64,000 nt of DNA from an uncultured Pelagibacteraceae bacterium (GCA_902536765.1 CACAYM010000002.1:124001-188000); one strand, 5' to 3'. Numbered from the stretch's first letter, positions 2,084 through 56,599 are shown. Translations and numbers: made by a program. Notes: generated from the letters alone by a model not told the origin.

Positions 2084-2188
2084 AATTACTAATATTTAAT
2101 TTATCATTTATCATACAATTTAAAAATAACATACCTGATATATCTATTATGCAATTGATTGTTATTGGGAATTATTAAACATTTGATA

Positions 2189-3631
2189 ATGGTCTCTAAA
2201 TTATGGAAGAATTATAATTCAAGTAAAGCTTACGATGGATACTTTACTGAAGATAACAAGCTAAGAAAGCATGCTATTATCATTTCTAGTATTCTAGAGA
2301 GACATGGAAAGAAAAAACTTCAAGAAATTGAGAAAAATTGTCAAAGTACGATTAATGCACGTGGAATAAATTTTAGAGTTTACGCTGCAAATAATAGAGC
2401 TGAAGAAAAGAGATGGCCTTTGGATATTATTCCAAGAATAATTCCAAAGAAACAATGGAACAAAGTTTCGAAAGGTTTGAAGCAAAGAGCAAAAGCCTTA
2501 AATTTATTTATTGATGATGTTTACAATCAAAAGAAAATTTTTAAAGATAATATAGTTCCAAAAGATATAATTTATAAATCACCATATTACGTTAAGGAGT
2601 GTGAGGGTTTTTCTCCAAAGTTTAAAGCTTGGTCTAATATCTCTGGTATAGACTTAATTAGAAATAAATCTGGGGATTATTTAGTTCTAGAAGATAATCT
2701 AAGAGTTCCATCTGGTGTTTCCTATATGTTGGAAAACAGAATGGTAATGCGAGATGTTTTTCCTGAATTATTTACTAGATATAAAGTTGCATCTATACAT
2801 CAATATACAAATAAACTTTATAATTGTATGGTTGAGTGTATTCCAAAAAAAACTTCTAATCCACATATGGTGCTCTTAACTCCAGGAGTTTATAACTCAG
2901 CCTATTTTGAACATGAATTTTTAGCAGACCAGATGGGTATCGCTTTGGTAGAGGGTAAAGATCTTTTTGTTGAAAATGATAATGTTTATATGAAAACAGT
3001 AAAAGGTCCGTTAAGAGTAGACTGTATATATAGAAGATTGGATGATAATTTCTTAGATCCAAAAGCTTTTAATAAAGACTCTTTGATTGGTGTTCCTGGT
3101 TTATTTAAATGTTGGTTAAAAAAAAATGTTGGAATACTTAATGCCATTGGAACTGGTGTGGCTGATGACAAAGTTGTTTATTCTTACGTTAACAAAATGA
3201 TAACATATTATTTAGGCGAACAACCGATTTTAGATCAAGTGGAAACTTATTTATGTCATGACGAAACACACAAAAAATATGTAATAAAAAATATATCAAA
3301 ATTAGTTGTAAAACCTGCTAATGCATCTGGAGGCTATGGTATAATGATTGGACCTAAGGCCCCTAAAAAAGAAATAGAGGAGACAATCTCCAAGATAAAA
3401 CAAAATCCTAGAGAATATATTGCTCAACCATTAGAAATTTTATCTACCGCACCAACAATTACAGAACATGATATTGAGCCACGTCATTTAGATCTAAGAC
3501 CATTTATTTTAACTGGAAAAACAAATTATGTTACTACAGGTGGATTAACTAGAGTTGCTTTGAGGAAAGGCAGTACCATTGTTAATAGTTCTCAAGGTGG
3601 CGGATCAAAAGATACTCTTATCGTTGATTAA
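2189..3631 (+). CDS. Circularly permuted ATP-grasp family protein (COG2308-type)
   Basis: ORF 2159..3631, ATG at 2189 (MVSKLW) more likely; RNKSGDYLVLEDNLRVPSGVSYMLENR ... VVKPANASGGYGIMIGP ... RHLDLRPFIL ... VNSSQGGGSKDTLIVD. Confidence 0.88.
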   Translation: MVSKLWKNYNSSKAYDGYFTEDNKLRKHAIIISSILERHGKKKLQEIEKNCQSTINARGINFRVYAANNRAEEKRWPLDIIPRIIPKKQWNKVSKGLKQRAKALNLFIDDVYNQKKIFKDNIVPKDIIYKSPYYVKECEGFSPKFKAWSNISGIDLIRNKSGDYLVLEDNLRVPSGVSYMLENRMVMRDVFPELFTRYKVASIHQYTNKLYNCMVECIPKKTSNPHMVLLTPGVYNSAYFEHEFLADQMGIALVEGKDLFVENDNVYMKTVKGPLRVDCIYRRLDDNFLDPKAFNKDSLIGVPGLFKCWLKKNVGILNAIGTGVADDKVVYSYVNKMITYYLGEQPILDQVETYLCHDETHKKYVIKNISKLVVKPANASGGYGIMIGPKAPKKEIEETISKIKQNPREYIAQPLEILSTAPTITEHDIEPRHLDLRPFILTGKTNYVTTGGLTRVALRKGSTIVNSSQGGGSKDTLIVD

Positions 3632-3939: not shown

Positions 3940-4980
3940 ATGCCTTATAAAAAAACTATAATTTTTATATTATTTTTTATTCTGTCTGCTTGCGGTGATA
4001 GTGGAGACGAAAGAGTTTCAAAAGGTCATAGAGATGCAATTAAAATTCAATGCGAGGATGCTTCAAATGTTAAAGCTTGCGGTCTAGAGGTAAGAGAAAA
4101 TTTTATTGAAGATGGAAATGATTACGCTGATTTCAGCGAATTAAATGCTGATCAAATAAATGCAGTGAAGTTTGAATGTATAAGATCCAAAAAATTTGGA
4201 CTAATTGCATATAACAATTGTTTGGAAAAACATATAGATAAAGCTCTTGGAGGAACTTTATTCGCTGATAAGAAAAAAAAACCGGAGAACAACATAGAGA
4301 AACTTGAGGAGTCAACTGTCTTCATTGCTCGAGCGGCAGTTAACTTATCGAAAGATCCTCCTGAAGAATATGATTTCACCTCAGGTTCTGGAATAATTAT
4401 TAGTAAAACCGAAATAGCAACTAACTGTCACGTTGCAATGGCTGAACCAGATTCAAAATTTCTCAATTTATTAAAAGAAGAGGGAAAATGGAATTTAAAT
4501 GATAATATTAAAATTGTAACTTGGATTAGATTAATAAGTGGAAAAGATTGGGCTTTAGCAGAATTAATAAAACAAAACGTCAAAAAGGATGTTTGTATAA
4601 TTAGATATACTCCAAAAGAGGCATTTAAAGTATCAATGAAACCTATAAGTAGATTTGTACCTTTTGATAAACTCAAAAAAGGAGACTTTGTTAGAGCCAT
4701 GGGTTCACCTAGTGGGTTAATTGGCTATACCTCAACTGGGGATATACAATGGCTCGGTACAACAGAGGGTCTTCGGAATACATTGAGCAATATAGATGAA
4801 TTTGATAAAGATACCAAATTCATTGTTCATGGCGCAAATATAGATGGTGGAAGTTCTGGTGGACCATTATTTGATGCGGACGGAAATTTAATTGGATTAA
4901 ATACTCTCATATCAAATACTGCTGCAGAAAATATTGCAGTGTCTGCAGACCATGTAAAGGATTTATTATATAGCAATTAA
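3940..4980 (+). CDS. Trypsin-like serine protease lipoprotein; first gene of tubulin/Hsp70-like operon
   Basis: Lipobox ILSACGD; catalytic-type motifs IATNCHVAM (His), VCIIRYTP (possible Asp region), GGSSGGPLFDADGNLIGL (Ser). Confidence 0.85.
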   Translation: MPYKKTIIFILFFILSACGDSGDERVSKGHRDAIKIQCEDASNVKACGLEVRENFIEDGNDYADFSELNADQINAVKFECIRSKKFGLIAYNNCLEKHIDKALGGTLFADKKKKPENNIEKLEESTVFIARAAVNLSKDPPEEYDFTSGSGIIISKTEIATNCHVAMAEPDSKFLNLLKEEGKWNLNDNIKIVTWIRLISGKDWALAELIKQNVKKDVCIIRYTPKEAFKVSMKPISRFVPFDKLKKGDFVRAMGSPSGLIGYTSTGDIQWLGTTEGLRNTLSNIDEFDKDTKFIVHGANIDGGSSGGPLFDADGNLIGLNTLISNTAAENIAVSADHVKDLLYSN

Positions 4981-4982
4981 TT

Positions 4983-5795
4983 ATGGGAAATAAAATTTTA
5001 TCACTTGTATTTACATTAGTATTATTATCTTCTTCAATTATAATCATTAATAAAGTAAACGCTCATAGTCCTGGAGGTAAGGAACATGATCCAATTAAGT
5101 GTATTCCACCTGAAAAAAGAACTATGATTGAAAGAGAATATTGTAAAATTCTATTAAAGTCCCACCGTTTGTGTAAGTTAGAAGAACATTGTGCAATTTT
5201 AAAACTTGAGGAACAACAAAAAAAAATTGGAGATTTAGAGGACAAATTGGGAGGTGTTGGTGAATGTGGAGATTTACCTTTTAATCATAAATCTAATAGT
5301 AAAGCTAATATTCACCAAAAAGCTAACTCAAATTCTGAAGTAATAATTAATATTGATAAAGGTGATGACTTATTATTTTATGCTCCTTCCACAAAAGATG
5401 AGAACTGGTATTATGTTAAAGTAAAAAAAATTAATTCAACATGTGCAGATGGTTATATAAAAGCAAAATATGTTGTTAAAAAAGAGGAAGCTACAGATGA
5501 TGTTGTAGTTGAAGTTAAAAAAGCAGAGTTAATTAAAATACTTAAACCTAAATTACAAAAAAATGGCAAACTAATGGTTATTGATGCTGAAGGAACTTTG
5601 TCAATAACAGGTGCTGTTACAGAGGATAAAATAGATGAAATTTTAGTTAATGAGGAAGAAGAAGTAATAAATGATGATAATACATTTACATATTTGCTTT
5701 TTGTTCCAAGTGAAGGTGCTGAAATTAGAATAATTGGTAAAAACAATGGGGAAGTCGTAAAAGAATTATCTTTTAAAATTAAGGTTGGTAAATAA
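4983..5795 (+). CDS. Secreted protein with SH3-like domain
   Basis: Signal peptide; SH3b-like segment SNSKANIHQKANSNSEVIINIDKGDDLLFYAPSTKDENWYYVKVKKINSTCADGYIKAKYV; 2 nt after previous gene. Confidence 0.65.
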   Translation: MGNKILSLVFTLVLLSSSIIIINKVNAHSPGGKEHDPIKCIPPEKRTMIEREYCKILLKSHRLCKLEEHCAILKLEEQQKKIGDLEDKLGGVGECGDLPFNHKSNSKANIHQKANSNSEVIINIDKGDDLLFYAPSTKDENWYYVKVKKINSTCADGYIKAKYVVKKEEATDDVVVEVKKAELIKILKPKLQKNGKLMVIDAEGTLSITGAVTEDKIDEILVNEEEEVINDDNTFTYLLFVPSEGAEIRIIGKNNGEVVKELSFKIKVGK

Positions 5796-5797
5796 AA

Positions 5798-7180
5798 ATG
5801 AAAAAATTTATTGCGAATTCTTTCATCATTTTGATTTTAATTTCATTTACAAATTTACAAAGTAAAGAATTTTGTAGTCCTGATGAATTATCAGTAAATA
5901 TTACTGAAACATCAAGCGCAAAGAATTCTAATGGAGAAAAAGGAAATGTATTTGTCTATTTTGATCAAAGTTTAAGTATGAAAGGATATGTAAATGATCA
6001 ACCTGGTTTAAAGAACGTATATGTTAATGTAATTGATGATCTACAACAAATTGCTGAAAATGTTGGTTCCTCAACGTATTATCATGCCTTCGGCAAGGAT
6101 ATAATACCAATAAAAGGATCAAAAATTGCAAAAGTTATAAAACCCTCTTTTTATGAGTGTAAAGGCGCAGCGTCAGAGTGCAATAATCAAGAATCTAAAA
6201 TTGAACTACCTTTTAAAATTGCAAAAGCAAATCCAGATGGGACTTATATAATAGTAACTGATTTATTCCTTTCAGATAAGCAGTTAGTAGGTGGGACACT
6301 TAAACAATTAACCAAACCTCTAAAGTCAATTCTAAAAAAAGGAAAATCAATTGGAATTATTGGGGTTATGAGTTCGTTTAATGGAACTGTATATGACATA
6401 CCAATAAAAGATGGTGGATCAATGAATTATACAGATGCAAAAATGCGACCTTATTATATCATTGTCATAGGTGACCAAAAGCATATCAATAGAATTAAAT
6501 CTAATTTAGAAGAACAGCACTTTACCGATCCAGAAGATGAATATAAATTTGCATTAATAACAAGTTCACCTATTTTACAGAATCTTAATAAAAATCAAAT
6601 AATTTCTGAAAAAAATATTCCTAAAATAGATAAAGCAGAAGGTTTTAAATTTAAATATGTTGATGATGTTTTGCCAATCTATCAATTTAACACTGGAAAA
6701 AAATTTAATAAAAAATTTAGAATTAAAAAAGATGACCTTATTGTTAAAGGCTCATCAGGAGTATCTGAATACACTTTAAAAGAGAGCTTATGGTCTAGCC
6801 CAGAAGTAAAATGCAAAAAAATTGACTGGAGAAAGTCAAAGTTTGACTCAATAAGCACTGTAACTTCCAATGAGGATGGATTAACTTTGAACTTATTTAA
6901 AAACATATCAGATAGAAAGAAATTAAAACTTTTTTTAGGTATGAGATATTTTTATTTTGTTGATGTATACGCTGAAAAACCTGGAACTGCTTCAGAGAAA
7001 GATTTTGCAGAATGGTCTGTAAGAAGTTCTGATGCTGAGGGTTTTACACAGTCTAATCCAGTAAAGTTTAAAACTTTAAATTTAACAAAAATTATTAAAA
7101 TTTTAAATGCTGTATCAAATGATACATTTGAAAAAACTCTTGTTGCAACTTTTGTAATGGACTTTAACTTATTAAAATAA
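5798..7180 (+). CDS. Secreted VWA-like domain protein
   Basis: Signal peptide; MIDAS-like VFVYFDQSLSMKGY (DxSxS); later TYIIVTDLFLSD and SIGIIGVMSSFNG consistent with a Rossmann-like VWA core; 2 nt after previous gene. Confidence 0.6.
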   Translation: MKKFIANSFIILILISFTNLQSKEFCSPDELSVNITETSSAKNSNGEKGNVFVYFDQSLSMKGYVNDQPGLKNVYVNVIDDLQQIAENVGSSTYYHAFGKDIIPIKGSKIAKVIKPSFYECKGAASECNNQESKIELPFKIAKANPDGTYIIVTDLFLSDKQLVGGTLKQLTKPLKSILKKGKSIGIIGVMSSFNGTVYDIPIKDGGSMNYTDAKMRPYYIIVIGDQKHINRIKSNLEEQHFTDPEDEYKFALITSSPILQNLNKNQIISEKNIPKIDKAEGFKFKYVDDVLPIYQFNTGKKFNKKFRIKKDDLIVKGSSGVSEYTLKESLWSSPEVKCKKIDWRKSKFDSISTVTSNEDGLTLNLFKNISDRKKLKLFLGMRYFYFVDVYAEKPGTASEKDFAEWSVRSSDAEGFTQSNPVKFKTLNLTKIIKILNAVSNDTFEKTLVATFVMDFNLLK

Positions 7181-7182
7181 TT

Positions 7183-7749
7183 ATGATAAATGTTTTTAGA
7201 TCTATATTTTATTCATTAATTGGACTTACATTAATTGGCTGGGTAAGTGTTTTATTAATATCAGTAATGTGGGTTGGACCTGGTCCAGATTCTGCATTAA
7301 CTCAATACTTCGCTAACTCAATAATTGTTTCAGAAAGACTGGAAGCATTAGGCTTCGAGTTTTATGAAATTTCTAATAATACCTTTGAAATGGTTGCCCA
7401 TATGCTGACAGCAATGTTGTCTGCAACAATATTATTTTCAATTGTTTGGTCAGCGGGTTCACATTATTTAAATATCGATGCACCAGGTAAAGCTAAAATA
7501 TATTTTATTCATTGGATAATATTTACAGGGATTTTTGTAGCTATTTTATTTATTATTTCATATTTCTTTTTAAGACAAGCATCACCTTATGATGCAGCTG
7601 ATCTTATGAAGACATCAGGTCGTTCAATATTAGTTTTGTTATCACTTATTTATTTTTTTTTAATGTATTATTTAAGTGTACTTGTTGGAACAGCTAGATT
7701 TGCTAGATCATCTGTTTTATTTGCAAACAAATTACCGGGGAATTTATGA
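7183..7749 (+). CDS. Multi-TM integral membrane protein of unknown function
   Basis: 188 aa with about 4 hydrophobic segments; ATGA overlap with the next gene. Confidence 0.7.
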   Translation: MINVFRSIFYSLIGLTLIGWVSVLLISVMWVGPGPDSALTQYFANSIIVSERLEALGFEFYEISNNTFEMVAHMLTAMLSATILFSIVWSAGSHYLNIDAPGKAKIYFIHWIIFTGIFVAILFIISYFFLRQASPYDAADLMKTSGRSILVLLSLIYFFLMYYLSVLVGTARFARSSVLFANKLPGNL

Positions 7750-9290
7750 AGAATTTTATTATTGGAATAGGTGGAACTGGAGCTAAATGTCTTGAACATT
7801 TGTTACACTGCTGTTCGTCTGGATTAGGCCCTGAAGATTTATGGGTTGGAATGGTTGATCAAGACGAAGCTAACGGCAATGTTAGTAGAACTAAAATTTT
7901 ATTAAACAAATATATTAATTTAAGAACTAGCCTTCGCGATGAAGCAAAACACGATTTAACAAATAATAGTAATCTTTTTAAAACAAATATTAGAACTAAT
8001 AACGATTCAGTTTGGTTGCCTTTGAAAGGTGCAGACCCAACATTAAAAGAAGTAGTTCATTATGATCTATTGAAACCAGAAGTTAAGGGATTAATGGATT
8101 GTTTATATGATCCTACAGAAAAACTACAAAATTTATCAGAAGGTTTTAGAGCAAGACCAAATATTGGTGCTGCTGCAATGTTAGCAACAACCGCTAACGA
8201 AAATGATCCTTTTTGGTCACAAATTTATAAAGCTATAGATGCAGCTAGAGGTGGAGAAGAAGTAAGAGTATTTATCATAAGCTCTATTTTTGGAGGAACT
8301 GGAGCATCAGGTTTTCCAAATATAGCCAGAAGAATAAAAACAATTCAGCAAGAAAAAAACGTAACTACAAACTTTCATTTAGGTGGAGCTTTAATGCTTC
8401 CATATTTTAATTATGAAGTACCAGAAGAAAATATGGAAGGAGAATTATTTGCAAAACCAGAGGAATTTTTAGATCAAACTAAAGGTGCCTTAGAATACTA
8501 TTCAAAACTGTTTGAGCATAATAAAATATTTGACCAAGTATATATTACAGGTTGGGACCCACTTTCAAAACTTTCTAATTTCAAAATGGGTGGAAATTTA
8601 CAAAATAACCCACCATTATTCCCTGAAATATATGCAGCCCTTGGAGCACTTAAATTTTTTAGCAGTGAAAATAAAATTAGCGAAAATCAAGAAATTTTTC
8701 ATATAGGAAAGAATGATAGTGATGAAATATTATGGTCAGATATTCCAAATGTTTCTAACAGTTTAAACTCAAAAGAAAATATTGCTAAACTTATAAGATT
8801 TGCTTTTAGTTATAACTGGATGTATGGACCAGCTCTTGTTGGTAGCTGGAGTAAAATAAAAAAATATTCCAATGAAAATTGGTTTAAGCGTTTAATTTAT
8901 AAATATACATACAATTCTGAAACTAAGAACTGTGAAGTAGGTCATGAACACAATCAAGAAGTTATTTTAGCTATGAAGGAATATTGTGAAGATATTTTAA
9001 TCTGGATTACAGATATGCATTATTCAACAATACTTAATACAGATCAAAAAATGAATTTGGTTGTGTCTGAATTCTTTTCTGAATTTAAAGCAAAAAATGT
9101 TTCTAATCGTGTAACAATTAAGGAAAAACTTAATTATTCTGAAAAAAATCAATTCAAAGATTTTGTTTCTGATGGAAAGAATTTAAAATTGTTAAATATC
9201 ATGAGCAATATTTGTTACAAAAAAATTTATAGAGATCAAAAAGGGCTTGGAGTTTTTATGGATATCCTTTTTAGATCGTGTGAGCAATAA
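7746..9290 (+). CDS. FtsZ/tubulin-like GTPase family protein (Tubulin_2-like)
   Basis: N-terminal MKNFIIGIGGTGAKCLEHLLH (T1-like), VGMVDQDEANGN (T2-like), VFIISSIFGGTGASGFPNIARRI (tubulin signature/T4-like, about 8279-8313). Confidence 0.78.
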   Translation: MKNFIIGIGGTGAKCLEHLLHCCSSGLGPEDLWVGMVDQDEANGNVSRTKILLNKYINLRTSLRDEAKHDLTNNSNLFKTNIRTNNDSVWLPLKGADPTLKEVVHYDLLKPEVKGLMDCLYDPTEKLQNLSEGFRARPNIGAAAMLATTANENDPFWSQIYKAIDAARGGEEVRVFIISSIFGGTGASGFPNIARRIKTIQQEKNVTTNFHLGGALMLPYFNYEVPEENMEGELFAKPEEFLDQTKGALEYYSKLFEHNKIFDQVYITGWDPLSKLSNFKMGGNLQNNPPLFPEIYAALGALKFFSSENKISENQEIFHIGKNDSDEILWSDIPNVSNSLNSKENIAKLIRFAFSYNWMYGPALVGSWSKIKKYSNENWFKRLIYKYTYNSETKNCEVGHEHNQEVILAMKEYCEDILIWITDMHYSTILNTDQKMNLVVSEFFSEFKAKNVSNRVTIKEKLNYSEKNQFKDFVSDGKNLKLLNIMSNICYKKIYRDQKGLGVFMDILFRSCEQ

Positions 9291-9292
9291 TT

Positions 9293-12200
9293 ATGGTTAA
9301 AAAAGTACTACCACCGCTAAATGAACAAAACCAAGTTTCAAATATAGCTACTTCTGGAGAATGGAAATCTGAAGATGCTTCATTTTTAGAAAAACTAGCC
9401 AAAGGGTTAAAAATGGGTGGTGAAGAAATAGTTTCTGCCACAGACATAGTTTCAGTCCCAGATGTTTGGGCAAGAGTTCTAATAGTAAGAAATGGTCTTT
9501 TAGATAACAACCAATCAATAGTAAATGAGTGGAGAGGAACTTTGGCTCTGTTAGGTTTAGCTCCTTATTACAAACATATATACGATTTATCTTCAAGTAT
9601 AGTTAACATTCAAGACATAAAAAATAATCCATATTCAGGAGGAAGTCCTGCAAACGACGGATTGGCACATATTGGGAAAATATTATTTGATGTTAAACCT
9701 TTAGATACGATGGCTCAAGGCCAAGATTGGAATGCTGTAGGGGTTTTGAATTTTAACAAATCAGCTATAGCAGTAGTTAATCCTTATACAATGTTAGCGG
9801 CAGCTAAAGATTATACAGGTATCAATAATATTTCTAAATTACCTTGGTATGAAGATGGTTATTTAATAGATCCTTGTAACGCAAGAGATATGAGAAATGA
9901 ACAATTTGCTATTTTATCTCATTACATACAAGAATTAATAAACGGAATCCAAGGTCTTACCTATTCAAATATGGAAGTATTCAATGCAGTAATGGCAAGA
10001 CTTCAAGAATTTAAAACATCATGTGATGCAAAAAGTAGTGGAGCTAGTTTTTCAAGTTGGAACCCAACAAAAGTTAATTTAAACTTACCTGCACAACCTG
10101 TCTACGATAAACTTTCAACAATATATATAGGTGCTTCTGATCAAAACGCAAAATTTGATTGTGGTCTTGAGGTTAGACCAGAGTTTAAGGATCAAATTAA
10201 AGGTGGTATTTTTGCTGATTTTAGAGTCGCGCAATCAAAAGGAAAAACATTATCAGATGTTCGTGTTTGGAATAACTATTCTTTAAATTCTTTAAGACAA
10301 GATGAAAATTTATATAAAATATTGAAATCTGAATGTGAAGAGCAAGGTTACTTATATTTAACTCCAGAAACTATTTTTACAGAAAAATTAGTTGTTCTAC
10401 CAGGAGGTGATAGAAAGCTTAAAGAGCACTCTCGAGATGGAGAACAATTTGCATATCCAATAAACTCTTCCATGTTAATGTTTATGGATCCAAAAGCGAT
10501 TTCTACAAATTGTATAATTAGTCCTGATGGCGATAACTATAAAGCTGTTTTATATTTAAATTTAGTAAGTGAGAGTGGTGGTTCTATGAGTTATACTCTT
10601 GAAAAAATTTTTAAAGCTAAAGATGTTGTTAAAAATAGATCCGTCCCATTAGGTTTTAGTATTTGGCCAGATATTAAAACAGAAGACTGGGATCAATATT
10701 ATTTCTTCTACGACGGAAATACACAAGTAAATATTTTACCTAAAAATATTTTTTCAGTGAAGGATATTAATAGTAAATTAGAAAGTCAAACAGGTAGTGA
10801 TAAAATCAAATTCTTAGACTCAATGATTAAATCGCATGAAGTTATTGGAGAAGAAATTCCAATTCAGCAAACTTCTGCAGTAACAGAGTTAAGAACTTTA
10901 AAATCCTCACCTGAAGCAGTTATGTGCAATGTTGCTACCCAAACCGGTGGAAGATCATTTGTAGATCATAATCAAAGAGTAGATGTTGGGCTAATTCTTT
11001 TTCCTGATCCACAAGAGGTCAAAGATACGAATAATATATGGTCAATTGGTATTGATTTTGGAACAACTAACTCATGTGTTTTTTATAAAGAAAACAAAGA
11101 TGAACCTAAGGAATTAGGTTTTAAAAACAGAATTAATCTTCCATACGAACCAGGTAATGAAGAAGAAGAATTAGAAGAAGTAATGCAAGCTCATAAAGAA
11201 TTTGTTCCTAGTAGATTTGTTAGCGTTCCTTTTATGACAATTTTAAGAGAAAGATCATATAAAGAAACATCATCAGAAAATTTACCGTTTAGAAGTAATT
11301 TTATTTATTATGTTGACCAAGTTCTTTACGCAATTCAAGATCTACCTGACGATAAAAGACCTTTAAAATTTAATTTGAAATGGGATGAAGCTGAGCAAAG
11401 TAGAATTAAGTCTCAGTACTTTATTTCACAAATCGTTTTACAAGCAGCGGTAGAAGCAGCTGCTCAAGGAATAAAAAGAGAAAATTTACAATTTAATTTT
11501 TCTTATCCAGAAGCATATTCCCAAGATTTATTGAGATCTTTTAGACGAATAACTAAGAGAGCAATAAACATCGGATTGAATGATGAAAGTTATAAATCAG
11601 AGGAAAAAACTAAATTTGAAACAGAAAGTATATCAAGCGCTTTGTACTTCGCCCAAGGTCAAAAAATAGCTTTCGCAAATAATGTTGTCACAATAGATAT
11701 AGGTGGTGGAACTTCAGATTTATCTCTTTGGCAAGATAACAAATTAATTTGGAGAAACTCATTCAGACTAGCAGGTAAAGATGTGCTGATAGATTATTTG
11801 ACTAATAATTTACCTTTAATTAAAGAAATAAGTGGTAATGATGAATTGTTGCTTGCTACGTATGATGACCTGCAAAAAATTAAATCTAATAAATCTAAAT
11901 TAGCAAATGGTGTTGAATTATTAGTAAACAGCACAACATTTGGTAAAGCATTTTCAAATAGATTCGACATAGTCAGTGGAAAAGAAAGAGGAAAAGAACT
12001 TAAAAACTTAACCGAATTAACTTTATCTGGAATTCTTTATTATGTAAGTCTAGTGACAAATCATCTTATAGAACAAGGTCATTTCAAAAAAGGACTAACA
12101 AAATCTTTAAGAATTTGTTTGGGTGGTAAGGCAAGCACATTATATAAAATTGTTTTTGATGATAGCGTAGAGCAAGAAAGACTAGCTAAAATGATTGAAA

Positions 12201-12703
12201 AAGTAACTGATGGTGCTTTTGAATCTATAGCACTTGAATTTACCCATACACCCAAACACGAGGTCTCTTATGGGCTTTTAGTTGATAAATTTGGCGCCAC
12301 GGATTTAAACGTAAAAGAAAAATCTCACGAAACTGTTCTTGGTGAAGATATTATGTCAGGAAAAAATAAAGTCGGTGTTATTTCTGATCTTGATCCAAAT
12401 AAACCTTGGAGAATTAAAGATGTATCTAAATTAAAGACTTTTTTAAAATATTTGCAATCCTTTTCAAAAATTCCAGTAAAACTTACAAAAAAACTAGAGG
12501 GTGATCTTGAAGGAAAAATTAATGCTGAATTAAAAAATGGTCAGGCTAAAGCAATAGAGGCTCAAAAAAATCAACAATCAGTCGAAGGAGACGATAGTAT
12601 GAAAGAATTACAAAAAACTTCTTCCATATTAGAACCTGTATTTATATTGGAATTAAAACAAGTCATTAAAGAAATTGCAAGCGGCAAACTCAAGCTAAAG
12701 TAA
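9293..12703 (+). CDS. Large protein with C-terminal Hsp70/actin-fold ATPase domain and unknown ~570-aa N-terminal region
   Basis: WSIGIDFGTTNSCVFYKE (phosphate-1, near 11041), VVTIDIGGGTSDLSLW (phosphate-2, near 11690), LRICLGGKASTLYKIVF (adenosine motif-like). Confidence 0.82.
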   Translation: MVKKVLPPLNEQNQVSNIATSGEWKSEDASFLEKLAKGLKMGGEEIVSATDIVSVPDVWARVLIVRNGLLDNNQSIVNEWRGTLALLGLAPYYKHIYDLSSSIVNIQDIKNNPYSGGSPANDGLAHIGKILFDVKPLDTMAQGQDWNAVGVLNFNKSAIAVVNPYTMLAAAKDYTGINNISKLPWYEDGYLIDPCNARDMRNEQFAILSHYIQELINGIQGLTYSNMEVFNAVMARLQEFKTSCDAKSSGASFSSWNPTKVNLNLPAQPVYDKLSTIYIGASDQNAKFDCGLEVRPEFKDQIKGGIFADFRVAQSKGKTLSDVRVWNNYSLNSLRQDENLYKILKSECEEQGYLYLTPETIFTEKLVVLPGGDRKLKEHSRDGEQFAYPINSSMLMFMDPKAISTNCIISPDGDNYKAVLYLNLVSESGGSMSYTLEKIFKAKDVVKNRSVPLGFSIWPDIKTEDWDQYYFFYDGNTQVNILPKNIFSVKDINSKLESQTGSDKIKFLDSMIKSHEVIGEEIPIQQTSAVTELRTLKSSPEAVMCNVATQTGGRSFVDHNQRVDVGLILFPDPQEVKDTNNIWSIGIDFGTTNSCVFYKENKDEPKELGFKNRINLPYEPGNEEEELEEVMQAHKEFVPSRFVSVPFMTILRERSYKETSSENLPFRSNFIYYVDQVLYAIQDLPDDKRPLKFNLKWDEAEQSRIKSQYFISQIVLQAAVEAAAQGIKRENLQFNFSYPEAYSQDLLRSFRRITKRAINIGLNDESYKSEEKTKFETESISSALYFAQGQKIAFANNVVTIDIGGGTSDLSLWQDNKLIWRNSFRLAGKDVLIDYLTNNLPLIKEISGNDELLLATYDDLQKIKSNKSKLANGVELLVNSTTFGKAFSNRFDIVSGKERGKELKNLTELTLSGILYYVSLVTNHLIEQGHFKKGLTKSLRICLGGKASTLYKIVFDDSVEQERLAKMIEKVTDGAFESIALEFTHTPKHEVSYGLLVDKFGATDLNVKEKSHETVLGEDIMSGKNKVGVISDLDPNKPWRIKDVSKLKTFLKYLQSFSKIPVKLTKKLEGDLEGKINAELKNGQAKAIEAQKNQQSVEGDDSMKELQKTSSILEPVFILELKQVIKEIASGKLKLK

Positions 12704-12704
12704 A

Positions 12705-14645
12705 ATGTTTAAAAAAAAAATTAAGCTATTACTAATTATCTTTTTCTCGTTATTTTTATTTAACACAAGCTCCTTTTCTTTTCATAAAACGAACGCTAAA
12801 AAAGGAGGTAAACCAATATTTGAAGATCCAGATATTAATAAAGATCAAATTAGACAAAAGTATTGTGCTATGAAAGTTGTAAAAAAAGGATCATCGGAAC
12901 AAGAAGAGAATGATCTAGGACAACTAGGATGGATGATCTATGGATATCACGAATTAAATCCACTTCCTGCTGGTAAAAAATTAATTTTATCTAGAGAATT
13001 AAAATCTCAATTAAATTTTAAAATTGATCCTAAAACAACTAGTTTAGAAAAAATTTTAAAAATTCATTGTTTACAATATGGCGATCAAGACAGACCTATT
13101 AAATATAGAAATTCTTCAATGTTAGATTTATATAAAATAATTGCTGAAAAAAATGGCTTATTTAATGATGAAGAAAAACCAGATTATAAATTACCAATCG
13201 GAGAAGAGATTTATAAAAATGGAATAATAATAGATATACCTAATGTTGTTTATTATATGCCTGATTACTTAATTGCTAAACACAATAAACTTCTAGAAAA
13301 AGAAAAAAAGAAAAGAGATAAGCAAAAAAAGCGTGAAGAGCAAGCTGCTAAAGATAAAATATGGGTAAAAGATAACTATAAGCCAATTTTAGATAAAGCC
13401 AAAGAAAAGAAACAAAAATTTGATGAAACTAAAATCGAGCTTATCTCAAATTTAAAAAAACTAGAAAATAAAAGCAGAAAATTTGAAGAAAGATATGATC
13501 AAGTATTAGTTGATATAAATGACGTAATAGATTTTGATATTGTTAATACAAAGAACAAAAAAGTAATTTCAAAACTCAAAGAATTAAGACGATTAAAAAC
13601 AGAAAAGATTGAACCTATTGAATTAAAAGTATCAGTTTTAGACGGTGATATTGAACTTGAGAGAAAAATAATAGAAAATTTATTTGATAAAGATCCGAAA
13701 AATTACAAAAAATTACGAAAAAAAATATCCACTACTTATGGAAACCTTGAATTAATAATATCGAGAACAAAAGAGTCAATGAAAAGAAAGACTTTGGAAA
13801 AGTATAAAAAAAGTATAGATGAAATTGATTTCAAAAATCTTGAATCAGTTAAAGATTTAATAAATCAAAAAATTTTAGACAAAGAAGGTTTTATTGATAA
13901 GAACAATAAAATGATAGATGAGGTTTACTCTTTAATTAATGAGACAATAGAACTAGATTCGGAATTAAGTGAAAAAACATCATTTACTAAATACATTGTT
14001 TATATTGGTATAGCATTTTTGGTAATTTTTGGAATTGGTCTAGTTGTTTATATTTTACTTCAGCGAAAAGAACTAACAAATCTTAAATCAGAAACTAAAA
14101 AAAGTGAAAGTAGATTTTCTGAATTACAAGGACAAATTAAAAGCACTTCAGAACAAATTAAGAAAACTTCAAGATCTTCTCCTTCCCAAATAGAAGATAA
14201 AGGAGCTCCTGTTGTTGAAAAACCAAAATCAGCAGCAGAGATACTTGCAGCTAAATTTGATGAAATGTTATCTGATTACAGAGATAGTTTAGACGATTTT
14301 TCAAAAGTTGCTGCTTTTAAACAAAAATGGAACGGATTAGCATTAAGTCGAAAAGAAAGACAAGATGGAACAAAAACAATATTAATTAATTCAACAAGAG
14401 CGTTTGAAAAAGCAGAAATATGGTGTGTAAATTTCAGCGATAAATATTTTGCATTTCCTGGCTCTACTGTGAAATCTAATATGGCAACATATATGAATTT
14501 AGATTTTGAAAAAGCAAGTAGAGATTTTAAAGGAGTTTTTGCAATATCTTCAGGATCTAGTTACATAAGCGATCCTGCGCTTTTGAGAAGAGGTGGCGCA
14601 GGGTTTGTAGTTGAAAAACCAGGTAAATTAACTTTCCCAACATAA
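12705..14645 (+). CDS. Coiled-coil membrane protein: N-terminal signal/TM, charged helical region, central TM, C-terminal domain
   Basis: KKKIKLLLIIFFSLFLFNTSSFSF; Lys/Glu-rich helical region; TM YIVYIGIAFLVIFGIGLVVYILL; 1 nt after previous gene. Confidence 0.7.
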   Translation: MFKKKIKLLLIIFFSLFLFNTSSFSFHKTNAKKGGKPIFEDPDINKDQIRQKYCAMKVVKKGSSEQEENDLGQLGWMIYGYHELNPLPAGKKLILSRELKSQLNFKIDPKTTSLEKILKIHCLQYGDQDRPIKYRNSSMLDLYKIIAEKNGLFNDEEKPDYKLPIGEEIYKNGIIIDIPNVVYYMPDYLIAKHNKLLEKEKKKRDKQKKREEQAAKDKIWVKDNYKPILDKAKEKKQKFDETKIELISNLKKLENKSRKFEERYDQVLVDINDVIDFDIVNTKNKKVISKLKELRRLKTEKIEPIELKVSVLDGDIELERKIIENLFDKDPKNYKKLRKKISTTYGNLELIISRTKESMKRKTLEKYKKSIDEIDFKNLESVKDLINQKILDKEGFIDKNNKMIDEVYSLINETIELDSELSEKTSFTKYIVYIGIAFLVIFGIGLVVYILLQRKELTNLKSETKKSESRFSELQGQIKSTSEQIKKTSRSSPSQIEDKGAPVVEKPKSAAEILAAKFDEMLSDYRDSLDDFSKVAAFKQKWNGLALSRKERQDGTKTILINSTRAFEKAEIWCVNFSDKYFAFPGSTVKSNMATYMNLDFEKASRDFKGVFAISSGSSYISDPALLRRGGAGFVVEKPGKLTFPT

Positions 14646-14646
14646 A

Positions 14647-15567
14647 ATGATATATAAATTTATAGATAATAATGGATCAGAAATAACTGTAAATTCCTTA
14701 TCAAGTCTTCAATCACTTGTCGATAGCGAAACTATAAAAAAAAATACTAAAGTAAAAGCTGGATTAAGAGGAAAATGGACAATAGCATCAAACATAGAAG
14801 GCCTAAACTTTATTGCAGAGGAGGAAATTCAAAATATTTCAGAAACAGGGGAGGATATCAAATCTTTTATAACACGAACTGAAAATTTCAAAACTCAAGA
14901 GGAAACTAAAGAAGAAGCTTATACGAAAACTGAAGAAGATAATACGAAAGTTGAAAATGGAGATAAAAATGTTGAAGAAATTAAAAAAGAAGAAGTTGAA
15001 GTGTATGATGAAACTAAAGAGGATGTTGTTGATAATTCAGATTATTACACAGAAAAATTTAGTAAACAAAATGATCAGTCAGATTATTACACAGAAAAAT
15101 TTAATAAACAAAATGAACAGGAGGAAAGTATGGGGATGAATTTACCTGAAGCTGTAAAGAAATGTTTTAAAAAATATTTTGATTTTAAAGGAAGGGCTAG
15201 TAGATCTGAGTACTGGTATTTTGTCCTTTTTATAATTCTTGGTTATATAGTTGGTTTTTTATTAATCTTGATTACACCACTTTTTGCCTGGTTGTTTGGA
15301 GGCTTCATCATAGGAATAATTATACCAGCAATATCAGTTACTGCTAGAAGATTACATGACATAAATAAAAGTGGATGGTTTCAAGCTATACCAATACCTG
15401 CTGGTATTTTAGAAACTGGATTTGCAATGAATAGAAATGAGACTGGTGAGTTAATTTTTTTATTTATAGGTCTAGCTCTTTATATTTATTTAATTGTTTT
15501 ATATTGCACAGCTGGTGATAGTAAACAGAATAGATTTGGAAAAAACCCTTTAAAACAAAAAAAATAA
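14647..15567 (+). CDS. DUF805 family membrane protein with N-terminal GYF-like domain and repeat linker
   Basis: KKYFDFKGRASRSEYWYFVLFIILGYIVG...SVTARRLHDINKSGWFQ...LYCTAGDSKQNRFGKNP is DUF805-like; N-terminus resembles GYF_2. Confidence 0.82.
   Translation: MIYKFIDNNGSEITVNSLSSLQSLVDSETIKKNTKVKAGLRGKWTIASNIEGLNFIAEEEIQNISETGEDIKSFITRTENFKTQEETKEEAYTKTEEDNTKVENGDKNVEEIKKEEVEVYDETKEDVVDNSDYYTEKFSKQNDQSDYYTEKFNKQNEQEESMGMNLPEAVKKCFKKYFDFKGRASRSEYWYFVLFIILGYIVGFLLILITPLFAWLFGGFIIGIIIPAISVTARRLHDINKSGWFQAIPIPAGILETGFAMNRNETGELIFLFIGLALYIYLIVLYCTAGDSKQNRFGKNPLKQKK
15037..15120 (+). repeat. In-frame 42-nt tandem duplication (2 units) encoding SDYYTEKF[SN]KQN[DE]Q
   Basis: Units 15037-15078 and 15079-15120 nearly identical. 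Confidence 0.9.
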
Positions 15568-15570
15568 TAA

Positions 15571-15909
15571 ATGAAACAAACATTAATCGTGCTAATATTA
15601 GGTTTGTTATTAAGTAGCTGTTCGGATTATCTTTCAGAAAAAAAACGTTTGAAATTACAAAAAGATAAAGAAATTTTAGAAAAACAAAGAAATGAAGATA
15701 AAGCTACTTGTAAATATTATGGATTTAAGGCTGATACAGCAGAATTTTCTGATTGTTTAATGAATTTAGATATTGCAAGAAAACAAGAATTACTAACTAG
15801 AAAAATGCTTGAATGCGAGGCCGTCAGGAAGAGCAATAGTGAAAGTGGAGTTACCGGTTTTTGGGGAGGTGTCTTAATGGGTGCCAGAGAAAATCTAGCA
15901 TGTGATTAA
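15571..15909 (+). CDS. Small lipoprotein
   Basis: Signal peptide with lipobox GLLLSSCSDY; last gene of operon, 3 nt after previous. Confidence 0.65.
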   Translation: MKQTLIVLILGLLLSSCSDYLSEKKRLKLQKDKEILEKQRNEDKATCKYYGFKADTAEFSDCLMNLDIARKQELLTRKMLECEAVRKSNSESGVTGFWGGVLMGARENLACD

Positions 15910-19009: not shown

Positions 19010-19435
19010 ATGAAAAAGCTCTTTGCAATATTTGTAATATTTCTTTGTTCAATTAATCCAACTCTAGCAGATATGAATTTAAGCTGTGTTATGACAAATT
19101 GGAATACAAATGAAGATTATGACAAAGATCCATATAATATTGAGTATAAAGAATTATCACCTAGTCGTTTTTCTGTAATTATAGAAGTTACAAGTCCAGG
19201 CAAAGTTATTGGTAGGTTAATAGGTACCTCAGAAACTGGAAATATGAGAAGTCCATATGTAGGAACAATGGATGATAATAAAATAAAAATGAATCATAAA
19301 GCTTTTGAGATAAATGAAAGAGGTAGTGATTTTATCTTAGATTTAATTTCAGGAATGTTCGAAAATGAGACTTATATTGGACAACATAAATATTGGTATG
19401 TACAAAGAACTGGAACATGCAGATTAGTAAAATAA
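19010..19435 (+). CDS. Small secreted protein of unknown function
   Basis: N-terminal signal peptide MKKLFAIFVIFLCSINPTLA. Confidence 0.6.
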   Translation: MKKLFAIFVIFLCSINPTLADMNLSCVMTNWNTNEDYDKDPYNIEYKELSPSRFSVIIEVTSPGKVIGRLIGTSETGNMRSPYVGTMDDNKIKMNHKAFEINERGSDFILDLISGMFENETYIGQHKYWYVQRTGTCRLVK

Positions 19436-20583
19436 TAAAAATATTAATAACATTGTTTGTAATATTTTTCATGCACACAAACTTACAAGCAGAAATAATA
19501 AAATTTTCTAGCTGTAAATTTACAAAAGACTCATTATCAAAAACAATTCATGATGTCTTAAATGATCAAAAAAAGGAAAAAGGGGAAAAAACTACTCCAT
19601 ATAATATAAAAAAAGCGATGGCAGAAAAAAATGCCAAATATGAATTTATCGACAGAACTTTCGACACTGAGAGTGGAATAATGGTCAAAACGCAAAAAAA
19701 AATAGAAAAAGAAAAAGAAGAAGTTCAGTCTAATTTTGAAATAAGAGATGATAATACGTTTATAATTGTAGATATTAGAGAAGTGGGTGCTGATCCTGTT
19801 TATAACAGTGAGACAAAGAAATTTGATTTTAAAAGCACAAGGGTTCAATACAACGTATATTTTTACTATTTGTCTGAGGGTATAGTTGAAAAATATAATT
19901 ATGGAGGAAGACATAAGGAGTTAAATTATCAACAAAAATGTAAAACTAATTATTCTTTACCAGGCTCATCTGACTCAGAGAATATTGCTAGTGGATCAGG
20001 TTTTTTTATAAATAGAAATGGATATTTTGTAACAAATAATCATGTAATTTCAGAATGTAGATCAAAGTCAAAAATTACATTTAATAAAAAAGAAGTAGAA
20101 GCTGATCTAATTGCATCTGATGCAACATTAGACATTGCATTATTAAAAGCTGATATAAGACCAAAAAATTTCTTAAAATTCTCAAATGACAGACCTGAAA
20201 AACTTCAAAAAGTAATTGTTGCAGGTTATCCTTTTGGTAAAGGACTTAGTGATGATCTTAAATTTACCCAAGGTATAATTAGTTCTTTAAAAGGATATGC
20301 AGATAATTCTAATGAACTTCAAATTGATGCAGCTATTAACCCAGGTAATAGTGGAGGACCGATTGTAAATGAAGACGGTGATTTACTTGCTGTAGCAGTA
20401 TCAGGCCTTTCAAAAGATATAGCTGAGGGTATAAACTTTGGGATCAAAGGATCATCTGTGATGAATTTTTTAGATGTTAATTCTATTAACTACACATATT
20501 CAAAAACTTCTACATTTAGTTTTGGAAAAAAAAAATTAAATAAGCTTTTAGAGGAGAGTACTGTTTATACTTATTGTAATTAA
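19417..20583 (+). CDS. Secreted trypsin-like (S1C/DegP-like) serine protease
   Basis: ORF 19393..20583; ATG at 19417 likely. GSGFFINRNGYFVTNNHVI, DATLDIALLK, INPGNSGGPIVNEDG triad. Confidence 0.88.
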   Translation: MQISKIIKILITLFVIFFMHTNLQAEIIKFSSCKFTKDSLSKTIHDVLNDQKKEKGEKTTPYNIKKAMAEKNAKYEFIDRTFDTESGIMVKTQKKIEKEKEEVQSNFEIRDDNTFIIVDIREVGADPVYNSETKKFDFKSTRVQYNVYFYYLSEGIVEKYNYGGRHKELNYQQKCKTNYSLPGSSDSENIASGSGFFINRNGYFVTNNHVISECRSKSKITFNKKEVEADLIASDATLDIALLKADIRPKNFLKFSNDRPEKLQKVIVAGYPFGKGLSDDLKFTQGIISSLKGYADNSNELQIDAAINPGNSGGPIVNEDGDLLAVAVSGLSKDIAEGINFGIKGSSVMNFLDVNSINYTYSKTSTFSFGKKKLNKLLEESTVYTYCN

Positions 20584-20643: not shown

Positions 20644-20743
20644 TTTACTTATTCATCTTGTTCAATTATAAATATTAGCATAAACATTCATGAAATTCAT
20701 TAATGCCCTCGTGGTGAAATTGGTAGACACAAAGGACTTAAAA
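20644..20743 (+). repeat. Direct repeat of tRNA-Leu promoter region plus 5' half (copy 2, part of intact gene)
   Basis: Near-identical to 18733-18832. Confidence 0.85.
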
Positions 20744-20790
20744 TCCTTGCCCTTTTGGGAGTGCCAGTTCGAGTCTGGCCGAGGGCACCA
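20705..20790 (+). tRNA. tRNA-Leu(TAA)
   Basis: GCCCTCG/CGAGGGC acceptor, AAGGA CTTAAAA TCCTT anticodon arm, long variable arm, TTCGAGT T-loop, encoded CCA. Confidence 0.97.
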
Positions 20791-20794
20791 CTAA

Positions 20795-21559
20795 ATGTCA
20801 AAACCTCAAATAATTTCAGATACGAATAAAAAATCTTTAAAAATTAAATCTTTAATTAAAAACAAGTTATCTAAATTTAAATTGAAAAATATAAATATTG
20901 TAATTGGAGGAGATGGTTTCATGCTCAAAACACTTAAAAAATTTAAAAATTCTTCAAAATATTTTTATGGAATAAATTCTGGAGATTATGGATTTTTGAT
21001 GAATAAATTTTCATCAAAAACAATTGTAACTAATCTTAATAAAGCGAACCTAATAATAATCTCACCATTAGAGATGAAGGTAACAAATAAACAAGGGTCC
21101 ACAAAAAAATATTTAGCAATTAATGAAGTTTCAATTTTAAGACAAAGTAGACAGGCTGCCTCGGTTTTAATTAAAGTAGGATCAAAGATAATAATGAAAA
21201 AATTAATTTCGGATGGTGTATTAGTTTCAACACCCGCTGGCAGTACTGCCTACAATTTATCTGTTAGAGGTCCGATATTAAGTCTTAATTCAAAAAAATT
21301 ATCTATAGCTCCTATAAGTCCATTTAGACCAAGAAGATGGAAAGGAAAAATAATAAACGATAAGCTTTTGGTTTCTATAAGAAATCTAAACACTGTTAAA
21401 AGACCCATCAGTGCTGTTGCAGATAATATAGAAGTTAGAAATGCGAAGAATATAGTAGTGAAAATTAACAAAAAAATAAAGTTTAAACTTCTGTATGATA
21501 GAAATAGGGGACTACAAAAAAAAATAAAGTTAGAGCAATTAAGAAAAGAAACAAATTAG
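20795..21559 (+). CDS. nadK: NAD kinase
   Basis: IVIGGDGFMLKTLKKF, GINSGDYGFLMN, NEVSI, SDGVLVSTPAGSTAYNLSVRGPIL. Confidence 0.93.
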   Translation: MSKPQIISDTNKKSLKIKSLIKNKLSKFKLKNINIVIGGDGFMLKTLKKFKNSSKYFYGINSGDYGFLMNKFSSKTIVTNLNKANLIIISPLEMKVTNKQGSTKKYLAINEVSILRQSRQAASVLIKVGSKIIMKKLISDGVLVSTPAGSTAYNLSVRGPILSLNSKKLSIAPISPFRPRRWKGKIINDKLLVSIRNLNTVKRPISAVADNIEVRNAKNIVVKINKKIKFKLLYDRNRGLQKKIKLEQLRKETN

Positions 21560-56164: not shown

Positions 56165-56599
56165 ATGGAATCAGAAAAAAAAAAACAAAAAGAAAATGAA
56201 ATTAAAACAGTTAAAAAAAGTACGTACTCCAAAAAAAAAAAAGTAAAAAAAAATATACTTAATGGTAAAGCTTTTGTGTTATCGACATTTAATAATACAA
56301 TAATTTCAATCTCAGATACTAATGGTAACGTTGTATCTTGGTCGTCTGCTGGACAAAAGGGTTTTAAGGGATCAAGAAAATCGACACCATACGCGGCACA
56401 AGTTGCAGCTGACTCTGCCGCTGCAAAAGCATTGGAATACGGAATGAAAACCTTAACAGTTGAAATCAAAGGCCCTGGTTCTGGAAGAGAAACTGCGTTG
56501 AGAGCATTACAAGCTCGAGGTTTTAAAATTTTATCAATTAAAGATACAACACCATTGCCACACAATGGTACAAGGCCACCAAAAAAAAGGAGAGTATAA
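56165..56599 (+). CDS. rpsK: 30S ribosomal protein S11
   Basis: [35 protein letters not shown]. Confidence 0.99.

Follow-up and report, generated by a model that had tools for sequence, protein, structure and literature searches.

What do nine tightly packed genes of a streamlined ocean bacterium encode when two of them appear to specify a tubulin-like and an Hsp70/actin-like NTPase? The genes in question occupy positions 3940–15909 of a 64,000-nucleotide stretch of DNA from an uncultured Pelagibacteraceae bacterium (GCA_902536765.1 CACAYM010000002.1:124001-188000; the whole stretch is referred to here as the window), which is one stretch of a 1.14-Mb SAR11 genome. A preliminary description of this DNA had proposed nine collinear, tightly spaced genes, and our analysis reproduced every open reading frame (ORF), strand and gap: nine ORFs lie on a single strand, with intergenic gaps of 2, 2, 2, −4, 2, 1, 1 and 3 nt. 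We find that the two NTPase genes, together with genes for a secreted von Willebrand factor A (vWA)-like protein and a small multi-transmembrane (TM) protein, form the core of a cassette that recurs in other bacteria, and that its parts differ sharply in how well they are conserved.

The plus-strand gene at 7746–9290 encodes a 514-residue protein that Pfam, an AlphaFold2 model and Foldseek all point to as a tubulin/FtsZ-like GTPase (Tubulin_2; FtsZl1-type). The protein matches Pfam Tubulin_2 at 1e-10 (41.9 bits, against a curated cut-off of 27), and Foldseek comparison of its AlphaFold2 model, which was built from 8 sequences (predicted template-modelling score 0.76; predicted local distance difference test (pLDDT) 70), returned top matches that were all FtsZ, CetZ or tubulin, with probability 1.00. 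Glycine-rich nucleotide-binding loops are present at residue 7 (GIGGTG) and residue 181 (IFGGTGASG), the core glycines of which are invariant across all 11 aligned relatives; a conserved GxxxQxN...E segment (residues 282–294) lies ahead of a helix in a low-confidence part of the model. On the strength of the Pfam match and the model we assign 7746–9290 to the Tubulin_2 family of the FtsZ/tubulin superfamily; the structural part of this assignment is one of fold class, with modest template-modelling scores.

The adjoining plus-strand gene at 9293–12703 encodes, as judged from a profile of ten relatives (A4), Foldseek and motifs, an actin/Hsp70-fold ATPase domain (about 11039–12412) together with an N-terminal domain of ~580 residues. 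Pfam returned sub-threshold MreB, EutA and FtsA matches only; profile A4 aligns with solved structures of Hsp70, MreB and FtsA over the two phosphate loops, and the AlphaFold2 model (pLDDT 67.5, from 7 sequences) finds DnaK as its best Foldseek neighbour (1.2e-9), followed by BiP and MreB. Phosphate-1, phosphate-2 and adenosine motifs are located at residues 586, 801 and 942. Because D588, K696, E778 and D802, which by motif placement and established knowledge of Hsp70 we take to be the catalytic positions, are invariant across the ten relatives in the A4 alignment, the protein is predicted likely to be active as an ATPase. The model places 9293–12703 in the actin/Hsp70 ATPase superfamily, again as a fold class with modest template-modelling scores. 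Like DnaK/Hsp70, MreB and FtsA, the protein has the ATPase fold and the phosphate and adenosine motifs; unlike them, it carries the long N-terminal domain and gives no PF00012 match. A plain relative of DnaK can be rejected, as PF00012 finds one DnaK-like and one MreB-like protein in the same genome and misses 9293–12703, and we recognised no canonical substrate- or peptide-binding domain in the protein. Thus the tubulin fold and the actin/Hsp70 fold that had been proposed for these two genes, and for which a structure check had been set beforehand, both found support among the structural neighbours, the former in Pfam as well.

Relatives of the cassette were gathered by similarity to the tubulin-like protein (four SAR11 loci; genome G037, from another family of the order; cyanobacterial plasmids; Prevotella) and to the Hsp70-like protein (the alphaproteobacteria G692 and G948). 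In the class-wide search with A4, which gave matches in 161 genomes, only two were counted as true relatives, the matches not counted being short, lying over the phosphate loops and falling mostly in DnaK-, FtsA- or MreB-sized proteins. Six SAR11-order genomes, two other alphaproteobacteria, Prevotella and four plasmids of cyanobacteria all keep the core order vWA, small multi-TM, tubulin, Hsp70-like, except that the vWA-like gene is inverted in Gloeothece and locus L002 stops within the Hsp70-like gene; in all loci compared the vWA-like gene is one gene from the tubulin gene. Family profiles built without a given group and then tested on that group recovered the Prevotella proteins (tubulin 2e-42, Hsp70-like 1e-31, vWA 4e-7), the cyanobacterial proteins (tubulin ≤1e-61, Hsp70-like ≤7e-69, vWA ≤2e-14, with the best vWA reaching 1e-19) and the alphaproteobacterial vWA (3e-20). 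The pairing of the two NTPases was expected to be conserved between genomes and is, the partner gene adjoining in each relative found.

Several of the remaining parts travel with this core. G037 and G948 also hold homologues of the 4-TM protein, the SH3-like protein (profile matches of 4e-24 in locus L015 and 5e-14 in locus L045), the Cys-motif N-terminal domain of the protease and the C-terminal domain of the coiled-coil protein, and the profile of this last domain has matches in the G037, G948 and G692 loci; cyanobacterial versions of it fall below significance and are only suggestive. In L045 (G948) the trypsin domain has been lost and the N-terminal domain of the protease alone remains, and in G692 a single protein joins the cytosolic C-terminal domain, a TM segment and the SH3 domain (3.9e-12), which are encoded by separate genes in the window. 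The outlying genes are less stable: relatives carry the small lipoprotein gene at another place or lack it (the L003 homologue lies outside the operon, on the opposite strand), several have the protease and SH3 genes in inverted orientation, and L005 has another protein in place of DUF805. The G037 locus encodes, in addition, a single-pass protein (L015:2866–4851) that consists of a PDZ domain, a TM segment and the conserved cytosolic C-terminal domain, another swapped exterior.

Comparison of the window with loci L002, L003 and L004, plus the more distant L005 (only a handful of strains), indicates that the switch between conserved and variable sequence falls at the membrane, both between proteins and within them. 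Among the first four loci the cytosolic proteins are 82–92% (tubulin) and 77–89% (Hsp70-like) identical, and the exported and membrane proteins 43–79% (protease), 35–55% (SH3), 48–80% (vWA), 40–69% (4-TM) and 40–47% (coiled-coil). Against L005 the envelope parts are 25–44% identical, the tubulin 58–59% and the Hsp70-like protein 55–56%. As controls in the same genomes, FtsZ is 83–100% identical (64–66% against L005), MreB 87–100%, and two periplasmic solute-binding proteins 86–93% between the window and L004 and 73% between the window and L005. The cytosolic parts of the cassette thus evolve at a pace like that of housekeeping proteins, as the tubulin and FtsZ ranges show. Within single proteins, conservation of the coiled-coil protein is about 20% outside the membrane and up to 81% in its cytosolic domain, and stepwise identity shows the 4-TM protein to be variable apart from its last ~35 residues. 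L002 and L003 are protein-identical for FtsZ and MreB over the parts compared (about 90–93% at the DNA level); their cassettes are 92% identical for tubulin and 45, 48 and 42% identical for the protease, vWA and 4-TM proteins, and the two become similar at the nucleotide level only from the end of the 4-TM gene onward. The exterior of L002 instead resembles that of L004 (vWA 80%), though the FtsZ proteins of L002 and L004 are just 91% identical. The pattern seen in L002, L003 and L004 is what would be expected if the outer half were exchanged or diverged rapidly. Recent transfer of the cassette core among these SAR11 strains is unsupported because tubulin identity roughly tracks that of FtsZ.

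The cassette was found in 2 of 297 genomes of the order and 2 of 399 of the phylum, each count including the window's own genome. Three SAR11 loci adjoin tRNA genes: those of the window and L004 share one chromosomal site, marked by tRNA-Leu(TAA) and a NAD-kinase-like gene (20705–21559, plus strand, in the window), and L005 lies at tRNA-Pro. Near the G948 locus lie genes for a resolvase and an AAA_25 protein. All four cyanobacterial copies inspected are plasmid-borne, and two of those plasmids are typed as mobilizable.

Parts of this inventory have precedents. Makarova and Koonin (2010; PMC2875224) described Tubulin_2/FtsZl1 proteins whose partners include vWA and OmpA proteins, kinases and a P-loop GTPase, and suggested a role in membrane remodelling; the link between divergent tubulins and vWA proteins that the preliminary description had attributed to this work therefore holds. 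The FtsZl1 system resembles the cassette in its Tubulin_2 protein, in a vWA protein (by motif in the cassette), in its several TM or exported partners and in its patchy spread across phyla, but its tubulin has a coiled-coil and alpha-helical C-terminus whereas ours has no obvious coiled coil. In the cassette an actin/Hsp70-fold ATPase adjoins the tubulin, and the operon lacks the P-loop GTPase, kinase and OmpA partners (frequent there, not universal). Hsp70 is never mentioned in that paper's main text. No P-loop/Walker A motif was found in any gene of the window operon, nor any GTPase, kinase or OmpA Pfam domain, and the 11 related cassettes gave isolated Walker A pattern matches only, inside non-GTPase ORFs; the sole unassigned soluble cytosolic part of the window operon is the N-terminal half of the Hsp70-like protein.

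Membrane-associated conflict systems with a DO-GTPase (TRAFAC clade) and GAP1 at their centre were predicted by Kaur et al. (2020; PMC7159879). Their GAP1-N2 branch has two relevant themes, one combining tubulin with vWA and the other featuring HSP70, and it also draws on SH3, PDZ, GYF and trypsin parts; the two themes, which occur in Firmicutes and Actinobacteria, are described as not overlapping. The cassette shares with these systems tubulin, HSP70, an extracellular vWA (by motif in the cassette), trypsin, SH3, PDZ, GYF and TM anchors, as well as the arrangement of a constant core with variable parts. Unlike them it lacks the DO-GTPase, has tubulin and HSP70 together, and resides in Proteobacteria, Cyanobacteriota and Bacteroidota. 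We saw no sign of GAP1 or FNIII in the cassette, though no GAP1 profile search lies behind this statement. Since it has no P-loop GTPase and joins both themes, the cassette falls outside the DO-GTPase systems; by analogy, it may work as they do, and would then be a variant of a kind known by prediction only. The earlier view that no named system matches these genes accordingly stands as regards the missing DO-GTPase and the union of the two themes, but not as regards the parts list, for which Kaur et al. provide the precedent. A simpler parallel to the Hsp70–vWA link was noted in Escherichia coli K-12, where the yeg locus (L065/L066, yegD to yegL; YegD Hsp70, YegI kinase, PphC, YegL vWA) likewise has an Hsp70-family protein near a vWA protein, and YegD matches the Hsp70-like profile with 94% probability; unlike the cassette, the yeg locus has a kinase and a phosphatase, and neither a tubulin nor such exported parts are annotated there.

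The reading that we tentatively favour, although it falls somewhat short of probable, is that the cassette encodes a trans-envelope, nucleoside triphosphate (NTP)-driven sensor or assembly system with a constant cytosolic engine, a variable exterior and a role in conflict or defence. The exported proteins (vWA, SH3 and protease) and the ectodomain of the coiled-coil protein would detect a fast-changing external cue, most likely a phage or other hostile agent at the envelope. The signal would reach the tubulin-like and Hsp70/actin-like proteins by way of the 4-TM protein's tail and the conserved cytosolic domain of the single-pass protein, and NTP-dependent assembly of the pair might then restructure the membrane or build a scaffold that limits the threat. 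The outcome would be conflict or defence in the style of Kaur et al. (2020), without a DO-GTPase. A defensive role is favoured because of the rarity of the cassette, its tRNA-adjacent and plasmid sites, the variability of its exterior and the toolbox it has in common with the systems of Kaur et al. A number of observations weigh against this reading. The cassette contains no nuclease, toxin or other classical effector; it was absent from the viral and phage collections searched; PADLOC 2.0 applied to the operon recognised no defence-system family beyond the generic trypsin part of RT-Protease_XI; and the ten neighbour genes tested included no clear defence genes. Weak or relaxed constraint on exported proteins may offer another explanation for the variable exterior, particularly given the small sample. 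The structure models are of moderate confidence, the vWA assignment is one of motifs, and interaction, transcription and activity of the cassette are all putative.

Two serious rivals are membrane remodelling unconnected with conflict and quality control of the envelope. In the former, which follows the reading of Makarova and Koonin and which we regard as unlikely but the stronger of the two, tubulin- and actin-like polymers would bend or organise the inner membrane, for vesiculation or as a surface-organelle machine, and the exported proteins would form a surface structure or adhesin. Two neighbouring cytoskeletal-type folds, membership of the FtsZl1 family and the vWA and coiled-coil exports all suit such a machine, which alone would leave unexplained the rarity of the cassette and the divergence of the exterior between strains identical in FtsZ and MreB. 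In the latter, considerably less probable, the HtrA-like protease and the PDZ protein of G037 would detect misfolded proteins in the envelope, and the Hsp70-like ATPase would serve, together with the tubulin-like protein, as a switch or chaperone. The HtrA-type protease and the union of PDZ, TM and cytosolic domains in one L015 protein are consistent with this idea; the L045 locus without a protease domain and the failure of the canonical Hsp70 family model to match argue against it. Stress systems are, moreover, usually not this rare or plasmid-borne, and the rarity and plasmid carriage of the cassette are unusual in that light.

Carriage on cyanobacterial plasmids, with the resolvase and AAA_25 protein near the G948 locus, could also point to a plasmid-spread function in maintenance, partition or transfer of mobile elements, akin to TubZ or ParM. 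We think this improbable: the SAR11 copies are surrounded by ordinary chromosomal genes and no replication genes were seen close to them, such a function would have no need of the exported half, and the Gloeothece plasmid has its own ParAB. Least credible by far is that unrelated genes simply stayed adjacent by chance in a compact genome. SAR11 genomes are indeed gene-dense, but the gene order is kept across three phyla, non-streamlined genomes included, and this order and the leave-one-out profiles lead us to reject chance clustering for the vWA-TM-tubulin-Hsp70 core; the last small lipoprotein may still be there by chance.

Whichever function applies, the cassette is a defined, conserved gene set that pairs tubulin-fold and actin-fold NTPases and whose constant/variable split maps onto the membrane, and its culturable carriers (Picosynechococcus strains) offer a route to a direct test of the long-open function of FtsZl1/Tubulin_2. 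If it is defensive, an envelope-sensing, cytoskeleton-like strategy would be added to bacterial immunity, even in streamlined ocean SAR11. A bolder and more doubtful proposal is that such cassettes are widespread, unrecognised immune-like trans-envelope machines in which a tubulin-like and actin/Hsp70-like engine is fitted with exchangeable outside sensors; were this true, they would provide an uncommon example of one bacterial apparatus in which proteins of the tubulin and actin folds are obligate partners.

The other products of the operon, all encoded on the plus strand, are predicted by hydropathy to span the envelope, much as had been proposed. The first (3940–4980) is a lipoprotein-like secreted protein with a Cys-motif N-terminal domain and a trypsin/HtrA-type protease domain without PDZ (Trypsin_2, 1.1e-14), whose triad motifs TNCHV, KDVCIIR and GGSSGGPL (residues 161, 216 and 303) look intact. 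A small stand-alone protein at 56165–56599 has the same Cys-motif domain (about 1e-10 after iteration), which is thus used elsewhere in the genome. A secreted SH3-like protein whose C-terminal part is a beta domain (4983–5795; weak SH3_3, with a firm SH3 match of 3.9e-12 in a relative), presumably periplasmic, precedes the secreted vWA-like protein (5798–7180). The vWA-like label given earlier finds backing in motifs alone, namely a DxSxS (DQSLS) metal-ion-dependent adhesion site (MIDAS) motif from residue 54 and a TDL motif, with a family profile across relatives, but not in the Pfam or NCBIfam libraries, which give no vWA support; in hhalign against E. coli YegL and YfbK only the MIDAS motif aligns (1–3% probability), and neither a PDB sequence search with the profile nor an attempt to find SAR11 comparators through Pfam VWA_2 yielded anything useful. 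The small 4-TM protein (7183–7749) was delimited by hydropathy and stepwise identity. Downstream of the NTPases, the coiled-coil protein (12705–14645) comprises, by hydropathy and block conservation, a signal peptide, the variable coiled coil, a single TM segment (14004–14060) and the conserved cytosolic C-terminal domain (14268–14642). It is followed by a protein with a GYF-like cytosolic N-terminal domain and a DUF805 membrane domain (14647–15567; DUF805 2.1e-22) and by the small, peripheral lipoprotein (15571–15909), which is not conserved in place. No GYF domain could be demonstrated in the other alphaproteobacteria; in L005 (14971–16935) the GYF-like N-terminal domain is retained and DUF805 is swapped for a 654-residue protein with a repeat-like C-terminal part.

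The operon has a GC content of 29.5%, against 29.2% for the window, and an origin as foreign DNA is unsupported by base composition, which does not differ from that of the host. Scans of the operon for sigma-70 promoters and terminators gave scores barely above those of shuffled sequence. A tenth ORF, by sequence an M16-type peptidase, begins at 15957, 47 nt past the operon, and is not conserved with the cassette; it was tried as an evolutionary control and was not found in the other genomes. Near tRNA-Leu and outside the operon, a second trypsin-like protease (19393–20583) matches the protease part of PADLOC RT-Protease_XI at 3e-23. On the other side of the operon, a circularly permuted ATP-grasp gene (2159–3631) and its divergent neighbour (1358–2083) form a pair that is conserved in relatives, and because the genes after the pair differ between genomes, the region downstream of it is a variable site.

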